Below are positions 43,315-49,676 of a stretch of DNA of 49,676 nucleotides, one piece after another (the first letter of the stretch is position 1; each line of letters starts with the position of its first letter). The stretch covers positions 1-49,676 of the forward strand of contig JAHDCR010000006.1 in the NCBI GenBank assembly GCA_020629795.1, given 5' to 3'. The notes beneath the pieces were generated by a model. The model saw only the letters and a program-made list of their open reading frames with translations, made no database searches and was not told where the DNA came from. The translations under genes and the position numbers were made by a program. Source of the DNA: Candidatus Altimarinota bacterium. Its GTDB lineage: Bacteria > Patescibacteriota > Gracilibacteria > BD1-5 > UBA6164.

Positions 43315-43346
43315 CTTTAGGAATATTTAAGACTCATCTATATAAT
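43315..43346 (+). promoter_or_regulatory. CiaR-like box 1 and promoter before the histidine kinase
   Basis: The direct repeat CTTTAG (43315-43320), 5 nt, TTTAAG (43326-43331), 11-bp period, is followed after 9 nt by TATAAT (43341-43346). It would make the two-component operon self-regulated. Confidence 0.6.
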
Positions 43347-43347
43347 G

Positions 43348-43378
43348 CTTTACATAACTGTAAAGTATTATTTTTTAT
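43348..43378 (+). terminator. Hairpin after the hypothetical gene
   Basis: CTTTACA / TGTAAAG (7 bp, loop TAAC) followed by a T-rich run. It overlaps the predicted transcription start of the kinase gene, so it either ends the upstream transcript or sits in the kinase leader. Confidence 0.55.
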
Positions 43379-44725
43379 ATGAAATATTTCACTTCTCTCA
43401 AAACATCAGAAAGAATCTCTTTGAGTTTCTCGTTTTTTTGATTTCTTTCACTTTTGCTCTTTTTAGTACTTATAAATATTACATATTTCTTTGTTTGGTA
43501 TGGTGATCAAAAAGAAATGAGTTTTAGTAGTATGAATGAAAGCTACCGAAGATATTTAGAGAGTGATGGAAGTGCTGAAGATATATCTGGACTCGAAGAA
43601 TATTTATTACAGAGAGATACTATTATAATTCCTGAAATGTGAGAACTTATTTGTTCAGAATGAGTTTCAAAAAAAATCCATGAAGATCCTAATGTAGTAA
43701 AAGATAGATTTATTTATCGGGATGGAGAAACCCTTTATTTTATCTACTCAAAATATTTTAACGGAGTAGGGGAAGTAAAAGTATTTTTTGATACAACTCC
43801 ATACATTACCTCTCAGATTATTATTATTAAAACAGGTCTGATTTTCATATTTCTTGTATTTGTTTTGCAATTTTTTGTTTGAAAATACATTTCTAAAAGA
43901 TTATTAAAAGATTTAAAAAATATAGCAGAAAAAGTTAAAAATGTTGATATAAACTCTGACAAAAAACATTTAATTTGTAATAATATGTCAGAAGACGATG
44001 AAATAAGAATCTTAGCAGAAGCGCTCAATACTAGTTATGATATGATTGATATTCAAACCTCTAAATTAAAGCAATTTCTCACAGATGTGAGTCATGAGTT
44101 TAAAACCCCACTTATGGTTATGAACTCGAGACTAGATGTACTGGAAAAGAAAAATACAAAAAAAATACTGCAAAATACAGACATAGAAGATTTTTTTAGC
44201 CTAAGTCGGCAAAGTATCAAAAAATTAAACGGATTATTGCAGTCACTCTTTTTTGTATCAAAAGTTGAAGAACAAAGGTGAAGTATTATTAAAACAAATA
44301 TACTAGTTAGAGAAATAATAGAAAAGCGTATCCTAGAAATAGCTGAAAGTTATTCTCATAAAAATCTAGAATACGTTTTAGATATCTCAAATGATTTAAT
44401 CTATCAGGTAGAGGAAAACACTTTTTCTATACTTTTAGATAATATTATTTCCAATGCTATGAAATTTGCTCCTACAGATATGTTAATCAAAATTCAGGCT
44501 GATGAGAATTGATTTCAATTGGAGGATAATGGTCCATGAATTACTAAGTGTGAGCGAGAAAAAATTTGGGAAAAATTTTATAGAGCAGATACAAATATAG
44601 AATGATTTTGAGTTTGACTCTATTTAGTAAAAAGAATTACAGATATGTATTGATGGAAGGTTTCTGTTAGTTCACCAAAAAATTCTGGAGCAATATTTAA
44701 GGTTGATATAAGTCAAAGTCATTAA
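43379..44725 (+). CDS. Sensor histidine kinase
   Basis: A 448-residue membrane kinase: two helices (residues about 15-40 and 140-165) flank an extracytoplasmic sensor domain of ~100 residues containing one Cys. The HisKA domain has DVSHEFKTPLMVMNSRLDVL with phospho-acceptor His239; the N box is DNIISNAMKFAP; the G1 box is EDNGPGI; the G2 box is GFGVGLYLVK, with three of its glycines coded by UGA. It is placed upstream of its response regulator, the reverse of the usual order. What the sensor detects is unknown; the downstream genes suggest oxidative or thiol stress. Confidence 0.93.
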
Positions 44726-44753: not shown

Positions 44754-45428
44754 ATGAAAAAAATATTACTAGTAGAGGATAATAGAGAAATCTCAAAAAA
44801 TATCAGAGAATATTTGGAAATGGAAGATTTTGATGTTACACAAGCATTCGATGGTGAGGTCTGAATAGAAAAAGCAACAAAGGAAGATTATGACTTAATC
44901 TTGCTTGATCTTATGCTTCCTGAAGTTGATGGTATAACGATAGCCAGGAGAGTACGTGAAAAAAAAGGTACTCCAATTATTATGACAACTGCGAGAGAGA
45001 CGCTTCAAGATAGACTTCAGTGATTCGATGTATGAGCTGTAGATTATCTCATTAAGCCATTTAATCTCTCCGAGCTACTTGCTCGCATGAATGTACATTT
45101 ATCTAAAGCAGGACATGAGAAAGAATATAAAAATATCAATGGTGTTACGACTATAGGAGAAGTTGAAGTAGATTTAAAAAAACATACCTTTACAAAGAAT
45201 TTAGAGAACATTCATCTGACTCAAAAGGAATTTCTTATTGTTGAAAAACTTATATCTGAAAGTGACAGAGTGGTTTCAAGAGCTGATATAATTGAATATT
45301 TATGGGGTGGTGATAGTTTATTTGAGTGAGATAATAAGCTCGACGTCTACATATCTAATATTAGATCAAAGCTATGAAAATGATTCATTACTACTGTTAA
45401 GTGAGTGTGATATAGGCTATGAGAATAA
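44754..45428 (+). CDS. OmpR/PhoB-family response regulator
   Basis: A 224-residue DNA-binding regulator. The receiver domain has KKILLVEDNREI, phospho-acceptor Asp52 in LILLDLMLPEVDGI, Thr in MTTAR and Lys in DYLIKPFNLSELLAR. The C-terminal winged helix has LTQKEFLIVEKLI, VSRADIIEYLWG, DNKLDVYISNIRSKL and the wing TVKGVGYRLGE. Such regulators bind 11-bp-period direct repeats as dimers, which is what is found before four transcription units around this gene. It lies 28 nt after the kinase. Confidence 0.95.
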
Positions 45429-45439
45429 TATTAATTATC

Positions 45440-45471
45440 CTTAAGCTTACTTTAAGTTTTATAAATATGCT
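45440..45471 (+). promoter_or_regulatory. CiaR-like box 2 and promoter before the triple-thioredoxin gene
   Basis: CTTAAGCTTACTTTAAG (45440-45456), a YTTAAG-N5-YTTAAG direct repeat, is followed after 9 nt by TATGCT (45466-45471). It differs at only two positions from box 3. Confidence 0.7.
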
Positions 45472-45505: not shown

Positions 45506-46693
45506 ATGAAGAAAGCTTTTATATTTTCAGTTCTAATGATGCTAGTGTTACTCGCTTCTTGTTGAGTAAATGACTCCGAGGAATCTGCGTCAATGCTTAG
45601 TCCAGATACTTTAATATCTGGACAAGTTGAGGACTTTACTTTCATGAGTCAAGGATTTGCTGAGTATAACCCATCTCTTATATGAGAGACAGAGAATACA
45701 GTATTATTTTTCCATCAAGAATCTTGTGGAACTTGTAAAACTACAGAAGCAGATCTTATTGCAAATGGAGTTCCAACTGACTTACAAGTATTAAAAATTG
45801 ATATTGACGCTGATAGTTCAGTACCTCTAAAACAAAAGTATGGTGTAACAATGAAACATACGTTTGTGCAAGTGGATGCTAATGGAGAAATGATTAAAAA
45901 ATGGAGTGGTTCAATGAGTGGTGATGATATAGTTGCTCAAATAAATGGTTCAGGGTATGCCGCACCTGCTTCATCAGATTTATCTGCGATAAGTGGTTTC
46001 GATGATTATGTACCAAGTCTAGTTGGAAAAAGAGAAAACACAGTATTATTTTTTCATCAAGAGTCTTGTGGAACATGTAAAGCTACGGAGGAAAATCTTA
46101 TGGAAGAATCAATTCCAGATAACGTTCAAGTACTAAAAATTGATATAGATTCAGATAGTGCTACGGGACTTAAAACTCAATATGGAGTTACTATGAAGCA
46201 TACATTTGTACAAGTTGACGGAGATGGAGAAATGATTAAAAAGTGGAATGGATCAGCTGGTATTGACGATATACTAGAGAAAATTGGTTGAGAAGTAATG
46301 ATGGAAAAAGATGATGCTATGTCAGGTAAAGATGATGCTATGATGGAAAAAGATATACAAGCTCAAGATTGAAAAGAAGTCATGACTACGGAATTGTCGG
46401 GTACATATTCAAATTATGATGCAAGCCTTGTAGGAAACACAGATGATACTGTACTCTTTTTCCACGCTTCGTGGTGTCCAAGTTGTAGTGCTGCTGATAA
46501 GGGCATTACCTCAGGAACAGTGCCAGAGGGACTTACAATCTTAAAAACTGACTATGATTCTAGTACAGATTTAAGAAAGAAGTATGGAGTCGTTGCGCAG
46601 CATACATTTGTTCAAATTGATGCTGATGGAAATGAAATTAAGAAATGGGTAGGGTGAAATTCAGTAGAAGATATTGTTGAAAGAGTACAATAA
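45506..46693 (+). CDS. Lipoprotein with three tandem thioredoxin-like domains
   Basis: A 395-residue lipoprotein (lipobox LLASC). Three thioredoxin-like domains follow: domain 1 with Cys74/77 and domain 2 with Cys188/191, both in VLFFHQESCGTC; domain 3 with Cys324/327 in FFHASWCPSC. Each ends in HTFVQ and a Lys-Lys-Trp turn. Between domains 2 and 3 is a Met/Asp/Lys-rich linker (MMEKDDAMSGKDDAMMEKD). The repeats arose by internal duplication, domains 1 and 2 most recently. Placed between a two-component system and DipZ/MsrAB, it probably shuttles electrons outside the membrane from DipZ to MsrAB. Confidence 0.92.
45674..46690 (+). repeat. Three tandem gene-internal repeats (thioredoxin domains)
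   Basis: Units of about 270 nt at 45674-45943, 46016-46291 and 46424-46690. Units 1 and 2 keep long nucleotide identity around the CGTC motif (ACAGTATTATTTTT, CATCAAGA, TCTTGTGGAAC), showing a recent duplication; unit 3 is more divergent with CPSC. Confidence 0.85.
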
Positions 46694-46746: not shown

Positions 46747-46779
46747 CTTAAGCTTGTTTTAAGAAAAATGTATTATACT
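46747..46779 (+). promoter_or_regulatory. CiaR-like box 3 and promoter before dipZ
   Basis: CTTAAGCTTGTTTTAAG (46747-46763) and TATACT (46774-46779) with 10 nt between. It lies right after the previous terminator, as expected for a separate start. Confidence 0.7.
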
Positions 46780-46809: not shown

Positions 46810-48132
46810 ATGACGCTTCTCATAATTGCATTTTTATCTTGAGTTCTTACTGTTTTAGCTCCCTGCGTTTTACCACTTCTTCCGATAGTTTTGTGAGCAA
46901 GTGCTGAGGATGGGAATAATAAAAAAATCCCTCTTGTTATTATATGATCTCTCAGTATCTCTATAATTCTCTTTTCTTTAATATTAAAGGCAAGTACAGT
47001 TCTTATATGAGTGCCTCCTAGTTTTTGGAAAACGTTTTCGTGAGGAATGATTATAGCTTTAGGTATTATTACTATTTTCCCAAATCTTTGGAAAACAGTC
47101 ACATCAAAATTAAAATTCTCAGATAATTCAAATAAACTTTTAAACAAAAGTCATGAAAAAAAATGAATGATGAAGTATGTATTTATGTGATTTGCTTTGG
47201 GCCCAGTATTTAGTTCATGTAGTCCGACTTATGCACTCATACTTGCTATAGTTTTGCCTGCAGGTTTCTTGTTTGGATTTATAGCATTGATTTCTTATAC
47301 ATTATGACTCGCAGTAATACTTTTTGCAATTGCTATATTTGGACAAAAACTTGTCAGAAAATTGAAGGGAGTGAGTGATCCAAATAGCATGTTCAAAAAA
47401 GTGCTTTGATTTATATTTGTTTTAGTATGATTTGCCATAATATCTGGCTATGATAAAAAGATAGAAGCCGCGATACTTGATGCAGGATTTCTCAATACAA
47501 CAATTTTTGAACAAAGTATCATAGATGAGTTAGAGCTAGATTCATATGAAGAATATGAGAATACTCAAATCCAACAAGAACTCAAAAACGATGAAACAGT
47601 TTGATATAAGTGTACAGATGGAAGTTGCTCTAAAAAAATTAAAGGATCACTTGATTTTTTAGATGCAGATAGTGTTTTAGAAAATGAGGGTTCGTATGCA
47701 GCTCCAGATTTTGCCTGACTTGATAATTGGATTAATTCAGATCCAATTTTTTCACTTAGTGAGCTCAGATGAAAAGTAGTTATGATAGATTTTTGGACTC
47801 TTGGATGTATTAATTGTATCAATACTCATGATGAAACTAACAAGCTCTATAGTGAGTTTAAAGATAGTGGTTTAGAAATAATAGGACTTCATGCTCCAGA
47901 GTTCGCATACGAGCGTAAAATAGAAAATGTAGAAAAAGCAGTAGCTGAATTTTGAATCAAATTTCCAGTAGCGACAGACAATGACTTTACTACTTGGAAA
48001 CGTTATAATAACAGATATTGGCCTGCTTTTTATATTATAGATAAACAGTGAAATGTGAGATATACGCATTTTTGAGAAGGGGCTTATGAAGAAAAAAGAG
48101 AAGTAATTCAAGAGCTTTTATCAGAAATATAG
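46810..48132 (+). CDS. DipZ-like protein: CcdA/DsbD membrane domain fused to thioredoxin
   Basis: A 440-residue protein that moves reducing power across the membrane. The N-terminal half is CcdA/DsbD-like (helices with TVLAPCVLPLLP and GFALGPVFSSCSPTYALIL, each holding a transfer Cys next to Pro). After a ~70-residue extracytoplasmic stretch with one Cys pair (YKCTDGSCSKK) comes a TlpA-type thioredoxin domain with VVMIDFWTLGCINCI, the CINC motif (Cys333/336) typical of DipZ. It has its own box-3 promoter and lies upstream of msrAB (70 nt), to which it should pass electrons, perhaps via the triple-thioredoxin lipoprotein. Confidence 0.92.
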
Positions 48133-49415: not shown

Positions 49416-49447
49416 TTTAACTTTTTCTTAACCTAAGTACTTATTAT
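49416..49447 (+). promoter_or_regulatory. CiaR-like box 4 and promoter before the structured RNA
   Basis: TTTAAC (49416-49421), 5 nt, CTTAAC (49427-49432), then 9 nt and TATTAT (49442-49447). The predicted start (about 49454) is the first base of the RNA's closing stem. Confidence 0.6.
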
Positions 49448-49453
49448 ACATTC

Positions 49454-49541
49454 ATAGCAACAGGCCAAAACAAAATAAACTAGCATTTTGAAATTTTGGT
49501 GGGAGCATTATACTTCCTTTAAAACCTTGTTGCTATTTTTT
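49454..49541 (+). ncRNA. Structured 88-nt RNA (three-way junction) ending in a terminator
   Basis: P1 pairs 49454-49462 (ATAGCAACA) with 49528-49536 (TGTTGCTAT), extended by GG/CC past a bulge. P2 pairs CCAAAA (49465-49470) with TTTTGG (49494-49499) and CAAAAT (49471-49476) with ATTTTG (49485-49490). P3 pairs GGGAG (49501-49505) with CTTCC (49513-49517). A T run (49536-49541) follows P1. It may be a small RNA or a regulatory leader of the next gene, whose ATG is 12 nt downstream. It matches no riboswitch class I know. Confidence 0.6.
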
Positions 49542-49553
49542 AATCTGCAAAAT

Positions 49554-49676
49554 ATGAAGGCATCAGATCTGTTTATAAAAATACTCGAAAAGCAATGAGT
49601 GGATACTATTTATGGAGTACCTGGAGAAGAAAATCTTGATTTACTCGACAGTATAGGACACTCATCTATTAAACTT
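49554..49676 (+). CDS. Thiamine-diphosphate enzyme, acetolactate synthase-like (partial, N-terminus)
   Basis: The 41 visible residues begin MKASDLFIKILEKQGVDTIY followed by GVPGEENLDLLDSI: the N-terminal Pyr-domain start of acetolactate synthase-type enzymes, where the Glu in GVPGEEN is the cofactor-activating residue. IlvB, AlsS, pyruvate oxidase and related enzymes share it; the C-terminus is beyond the window, so the reaction is open. Its leader contains the terminator-tailed structured RNA, so its expression may depend on read-through. Confidence 0.85.

Follow-up and report, generated by a model that had tools for sequence, protein, structure and literature searches.

Is a short, terminator-tailed RNA that lies beneath a response-regulator box and just ahead of an enzyme gene a regulator in its own right, or the leader of the gene that follows it? 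Such an element occupies positions 49454-49541 of the stretch of DNA analyzed here (the window, 49,676 nt). The window is contig C4 of a 1.1-Mb Gracilibacteria genome that reads with TGA as Gly and whose nearest named relatives are Candidatus Gracilibacteria MAGs. The bacterium is tiny and probably symbiotic; we know of no cultured strain. A preliminary description of the locus had left both readings standing, proposing either an analogue of the CiaR-driven small RNAs of streptococci (csRNAs) or an attenuator or riboswitch-like leader. Based on comparison of genome sequences, we consider it probable that the locus encodes a stand-alone, trans-acting antisense sRNA, activated by a two-component system and independent of Hfq, which would lower the translation of a lipoprotein under envelope redox stress.

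Fold and conservation of the RNA

The predicted small RNA gene (49454-49541, + strand) spans 88 nt. Its two ends pair in a closing stem (49454-49464 with 49526-49536) composed of nine Watson-Crick pairs followed by an inner G·U and G-C, for a total of 11. Enclosed within this stem are two hairpins. The first, which we term the seed hairpin (49465-49499), exposes the loop UAAACUAGC, while the other (49501-49517) reads GGGAG-CAUUAUA-CUUCC. The result is a closed three-way fold in which the 3' arm of the closing stem and a U6 tail (49536-49541) together form an intrinsic terminator (49526-49541). This fold bears out the earlier account of a start on the first base of a 9-bp closing stem, two inner hairpins, and a 6-T run. 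The folding energy was -22.3 kcal/mol (z = -2.8), with 2 of 200 dinucleotide shuffles being equally stable. Since z fell to -1.3 once flanking sequence (44 nt upstream and 19 nt downstream) was included, folding energy alone is weak evidence, and the strong evidence is conservation. An Rfam scan of the window, together with a permissive scan at the site, revealed no family on the + strand, even below threshold.

When 60 relatives were searched at the DNA level, two genomes (G001 and G006) yielded clear matches and a third (G007) a short one. All three copies begin right after a -10 box and adopt the same fold as the RNA of the window genome (G000), with z-scores of -2.7 to -3.9. A covariance model (three sequences) scored them with E-values of 1e-20 (G001), 4e-19 (G006), and 5e-5 (G007). 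Outside of the genus, the same search of 48 family genomes returned only chance-level matches (E of at least 0.07). A permissive RNA search of G002-G005 returned nothing convincing. It also missed a divergent copy in G003, which lies directly 5' of the enzyme gene. In this copy, a box and TATATT are followed by a closing stem of 13 bp and a short run of U, with AAAAAUAAACAAAGC standing in place of the seed found in the other RNAs. No copy precedes the enzyme gene in G002, G004, or G005. Within the genus, at least four genomes thus keep the RNA, a fifth having a divergent copy. We refer to G000, G001, G006, and G007 (close) and G003 (divergent) as carriers, and to the remaining three as relatives without the RNA. 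An exact-pattern scan found no instance in viral contigs and, among species genomes, only the three known relatives.

Conservation was unevenly distributed along the RNA. The hairpin CAAAAUAAACUAGCAUUUUG is kept along with the stem and terminator, and the seed core CAAAATAAACTAGC is invariant in the four closest homologues. The remainder drifts, with some changes being compensatory. The preliminary description had staked its structured RNA on compensatory changes in homologues, and these are present. In the alignment of three sequences, four pairs were altered on both sides, a number matched by 14 of 500 shuffles, and 93% of alignment cells were able to pair, compared to 43-51% when the registers were slid. 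For example, the innermost pair of the closing stem changes from G-C to A-U in G006, and G001 has double changes from A-U to G-C in the outer part of the seed-hairpin region. One pair of the third hairpin (49501-49517) likewise changes from G-C to A-U in relatives. The seed-hairpin stem, by contrast, was unchanged throughout, as would fit selection acting on its sequence.

Response-regulator boxes and the neighboring genes

Upstream of the RNA, a direct repeat of the response-regulator (RR) type (YTTAAS-N5-YTTAAS), here TTTAAC-N5-CTTAAC, occupies the -35 position (49416-49432, + strand). It is followed after 9 nt by the -10 box TATTAT (49442-49447, + strand; kept in four relatives) and, after another 6 nt, by the predicted start at 49454. 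The register and the 9-nt distance between box and -10 are common to the sRNA promoters of G000, G001 (CTTAAC-N5-CTTAAG), G007 (TTTAAC-N5-TTTAAG), and G003 (CTTAAT-N5-TTTAAG). There was no good box before the RNA copy of G006, though this RNA does start right after a -10 box. The combination is rare. The composite pattern TTAAS-N5-YTTAAS-N8-10-TANNNT had five matches in the whole 1.1-Mb genome, and a reversed control pattern had none. Three of the five fall within the RNA locus, where they precede a thioredoxin lipoprotein gene, a CcdA/TlpA gene, and the RNA. The fourth precedes a CPHC thioredoxin-like lipoprotein gene (G000:C9:120458), and the fifth (G000:C18:16289-16320) lies 102 nt before a nitroreductase-like gene, both names having been read from sequence. 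The CPHC lipoprotein gene has an RR box in G006 (G006:C28) as well as in G000. Within the window, six composite sites scored at least 11 of 12, compared to an average of 1.1 in shuffles.

The locus holds further boxes, all on the + strand. CTTTAG-N5-TTTAAG (43315-43331) precedes the kinase operon, as it does in G001, G003, G006, and G007. CTTAAG-N5-TTTAAG occurs before the thioredoxin-repeat lipoprotein gene (box, 45440-45456; gene, 45506-46693) and again before the CcdA/TlpA-like gene (box, 46747-46763; gene, 46810-48132). RR-type boxes also precede other regulon genes in G002, G003, G006, and G007. From the kinase to the right end of the window, the order is two-component system, thioredoxin-repeat lipoprotein, CcdA/TlpA-like, MsrAB, RNA, and TPP enzyme. 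The presumed binder of the boxes is the OmpR-family response regulator (44754-45428, + strand; Pfam Response_reg and Trans_reg_C), encoded just downstream of a 448-aa histidine kinase (43379-44725, + strand). No named equivalog could be assigned to either protein. The other four carriers and G002 had kinase orthologues of full or near-full length (51-65%), and none was found in G004 or G005. Within this sample of eight genomes, the RNA thus never occurs without the two-component system.

The acetolactate-synthase-like TPP enzyme gene (start, 49554-49676, + strand) runs past the window (position 49677 onward) into a 100-N scaffold gap, beyond which lies a lumazine-synthase-like gene. The ATG of the enzyme gene at 49554 stands 12 nt after the U6 tail, as had been described previously. 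The RNA and the enzyme gene are directly adjacent in G006 and G003, and are separated by ~110 nt in G007. In G001, a convergent gene of 266 aa comes next after the RNA, and the enzyme gene lies beyond it with its own upstream region; all elements of the RNA are kept there. Retention of the RNA where the enzyme gene is not adjacent (G001 and G007) indicates that selection keeps the RNA for itself. The locus has its own promoter (box and -10) and terminator (U6), as a trans-encoded sRNA should, and is free-standing in G001. Constant cotranscription with a downstream gene, the mark of a leader, is broken there by the convergent gene. The RNA is therefore not mainly a leader.

Two alternatives would nonetheless give the enzyme gene a part. 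The better of these, which we regard as possible but rather doubtful, is a dual function: the terminated RNA would act in trans while part of the transcripts read through, or RR-driven transcription would interfere with a nested promoter of the enzyme gene. This would suit the tight spacing between the two and the presence in G002 of a box directly before the enzyme gene. It would also give a role to TATACT (49509-49514, + strand; TATAAT in G001 and G006), a possible -10 of the TPP-enzyme gene that falls within the third hairpin, ~40-45 nt upstream of the start codon in G000 and G006. However, no good -35 was called at standard spacing for this nested -10, and TATAAT is kept in G001 although the enzyme gene is not adjacent. 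RR-driven read-through into the enzyme gene is possible in genomes with the 12-nt spacing, so that leader activity may occur as a side effect.

Less probable still is a role for the RNA as 5' leader of the acetolactate-synthase-like gene, with its terminator gating read-through in response to a ligand, a leader peptide, or a protein. The close spacing in G000, G006, and G003 agrees with such a role, as does the related box in G002, where CTTTAG-N5-CTTTAG stands directly before the enzyme gene without an RNA. This arrangement suggests that the promoter may first have served the enzyme gene. G002 has the kinase and no RNA was found in it; the RNA may have arisen in the leader of the enzyme gene that is boxed in this way. 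Yet a leader would not explain why G001 keeps the RNA across a convergent gene or why ~110 nt intervene in G007. Furthermore, there is no conserved antiterminator fold, leader ORF, or Rfam riboswitch match, and the invariant segment antisense to another mRNA is left unexplained. Leader activity as the main function, one of the two earlier proposals, is thus not borne out. A candidate in-frame TTG leader peptide was rejected, as its frame in G000 meets a stop in G006 and is not conserved. Small RNAs can also derive from the leader of a protein gene, as is reported for a 5'-UTR-derived sRNA from the rhlI leader of Pseudomonas aeruginosa (PMC6786874). The RNA described here differs from that case in being kept in one genome without the neighboring gene.

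Complementarity to a lipoprotein mRNA

Positions 49467-49484 (+ strand) carry an antisense seed, AAAACAAAAUAAACUAGC, whose 18 nt are exactly complementary to the 5' UTR of a lipoprotein gene (G000:C6:20064-20081). The segment AAAACAAAATAAACTAGC recurs elsewhere in G000 as its reverse complement. The target gene encodes a small acidic or helical-repeat lipoprotein (MKNVLG...ASCG), and the site occupies the first ~20 nt of its predicted mRNA, just below a TATAAT box. Counting from the 14-nt core, the site lies 17 nt upstream of the ATG; the full GCUAGUUUAUUUUGUUUU ends 13 nt before the AUG. Genome-wide, the sRNA gene and the lipoprotein UTR are the only places in G000 with the exact 14-mer GCTAGTTTATTTTG. 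The lipoprotein also ranked first among 61 translation-start regions of G000 (-23.9, compared to -12.6 for the next). The 18-nt match, taken within G000 alone, has an E-value of only 0.011. As the RNA carries the exact antisense of the start of the lipoprotein message, base pairing between the two is the probable means by which it adjusts that message.

The same complementarity was found in other carriers. The longest exact complement between each RNA and its own UTR was 18 nt in G000, 16 nt in both G001 and G006, and 17 nt in G007, such that four genomes possess a conserved, loop-exposed seed complementary over 16-18 nt to an unlinked mRNA, as expected of a trans-encoded sRNA. The UTR site was 100% identical in the five carriers; identity was 48% in its upstream flank and 63% in the ten bases downstream. 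Duplexes of the four close RNAs with carrier UTRs had energies of -19.6 to -26.1 kcal/mol, versus -5.7 to -12.2 kcal/mol with the UTRs of G002, G004, and G005. The strongest duplex was that between the G001 RNA and the UTR of the same genome, as a result of a matched change in which an A of the sRNA became G and its partner U in the UTR became C. In G003, the UTR site is present and the RNA pairs with it over 9 contiguous nt (-9.6 kcal/mol), making targeting there doubtful. No exact GCTAGTTTATTTTG site was among the matches listed for G002, G004, or G005. G004 and G005 retain part of the UTR core TTTATTTTGT, suggesting that the UTR is conserved for another reason too. In addition, the carriers may form one clade in the tree of genomes, which is unrooted and has weak support, in which case the co-distribution of RNA and site could reflect a single event.

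It is improbable that the shared segment is instead a DNA operator, where a protein would bind regardless of orientation at the sRNA gene, at the leader of the lipoprotein gene, and upstream of secF, with no RNA-RNA pairing involved: a similar CAAGTTTATTTTG does occur upstream of secF in all eight genomes, including those without the RNA, but the orientation is strictly antisense (CAAAATAAACTAGC in 4 of 4 close RNAs, GCTAGTTTATTTTG in 5 of 5 lipoprotein UTRs), the segment lies inside a transcribed hairpin and just below the predicted start of the lipoprotein mRNA, and no such motif precedes the enzyme gene in G002, G004, or G005.

Further candidate targets of the antisense sRNA were considered and rejected. 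Among them was secF, as its upstream motif is present in 8 of 8 genomes regardless of the RNA. In several genomes, this motif (CAAGTTTATTTTG, or CAAGTTAATTTTG in G004 and G005) is followed after 16-20 nt by a TATACACT-like box; the motif is possibly an unrecognised promoter or operator element. A 14-nt complement at the start of a DsbA-like lipoprotein gene in G006 was lineage-specific. There, the signal-peptide codons of a CPHC thioredoxin-like lipoprotein are complementary to the seed, and G000 does not keep the complement. Sites with one mismatch were either antisense to a coding gene (G000:C6:8935 and G006:C11) or at the 3' end of a coding frame (G007:C25).

Proposed mechanism and relation to known systems

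The sequences show the shape of the RNA, its conservation, the box architecture, and the complementarity together with its co-distribution. From these features we infer that the RNA is transcribed, that the OmpR-family regulator activates it, and that it pairs with the lipoprotein mRNA in the cell with repression as the sign of the effect. In this model, the two-component system encoded 4-6 kb upstream would sense envelope stress, probably of a thiol-redox nature. Its regulator would bind the TTAA-type repeat at 49416-49432 and switch on transcription from 49454, with the closing stem and U6 ending the transcript at ~49541. The loop UAAACUAGC could then initiate the duplex at the very 5' terminus of the lipoprotein mRNA (GCUAGUUUAUUUUGUUUU), after which the weak A-U stem CAAAA/UUUUG would open and allow the duplex to grow to 16-18 bp. 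This duplex would cover the AU-rich 5' UTR, which has no Shine-Dalgarno sequence. Ribosome loading would most likely be blocked, yielding less lipoprotein at a time when repair genes of the thioredoxin type are induced. The effect is thus most likely to be translational repression; a possible alternative is that the lipoprotein mRNA is stabilised at its 5' end.

The analogy to csRNAs offered by the preliminary description gains support from the promoter layout, the compensatory changes, the retention in G001, and the conserved antisense match to an mRNA 5' UTR. Streptococcal csRNAs are activated by a response regulator, measure 87-151 nt, end in a terminator, and pair near translation starts (PMC3091779, PMC8186281). 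They were located via TTTAAG-N5-TTTAAG, followed after about 10 nt by TATAAT and then by a terminator (PMC3091779). The RNA described here shares a TTAAG-type repeat with an N5 spacer ~10 bp above the -10, a terminator, and a similar size. Although the layout is alike, its half-sites (TTTAAC and CTTAAC) end in C instead of the G required by CiaR. It also belongs to another phylum, is present in single copy, and is accompanied by a kinase and regulator that are generic OmpR-family relatives. While csRNAs display two stem-loops and an unpaired stretch complementary to the Shine-Dalgarno sequence or AUG, this RNA has a three-way fold and a loop seed aimed at the distal 5' UTR, at least 13 nt before the AUG. 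It showed no sequence similarity to csRNAs and no Rfam match. We make no claim of membership in the csRNA family; the RNA appears to work alike without being homologous.

MicL of Escherichia coli is a sigma-E-dependent, Hfq-dependent sRNA that represses the mRNA of the Lpp lipoprotein. In both cases, an sRNA activated by envelope stress would act on the mRNA of a small, probably abundant lipoprotein. The two differ in that control here falls to a two-component system rather than sigma-E, the lipoprotein is not Lpp, and there is no sequence relation. Furthermore, MicL requires Hfq, whereas an Hfq gene was found in none of the eight genomes of this Gracilibacteria genus (0 of 8), the same search being positive in 5 of 14 control genomes.

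CPR lineages make up a large share of bacterial diversity, and little is known of regulation in their reduced genomes. Searches of the literature on small RNAs and RNA regulation in these lineages yielded no described base-pairing sRNA, an absence that is not proof. We lean towards viewing this locus as part of a conserved antisense sRNA regulon, free of Hfq and controlled by a two-component system, in a Gracilibacteria (CPR) genus that reads UGA as Gly. It would tie envelope redox stress to the synthesis of a small surface lipoprotein and, within the literature found, would provide the first CPR base-pairing sRNA with a named target. A conserved sRNA whose target site compensates in a genome-specific manner suggests that control by sRNAs, triggered by two-component systems, persists or arose anew in CPR. 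The circuit would be compact, consisting of a stress sensor, an sRNA, and a lipoprotein. The combination of an RR box, a terminator, and antisense to 5' UTRs offers a search recipe for uncultured phyla.

A further hairpin was observed at the predicted 5' end of the kinase mRNA. Directly after the boxed start, a terminator-like hairpin (AATGCTTTAC..GTAAAGTATT) with a T-run occupies window positions 43347-43376. A similar hairpin follows the box in G001 and G006, as does one with a changed stem in G003. Its recurrence after the box in relatives suggests a possible second short RNA under RR control, or an attenuator.
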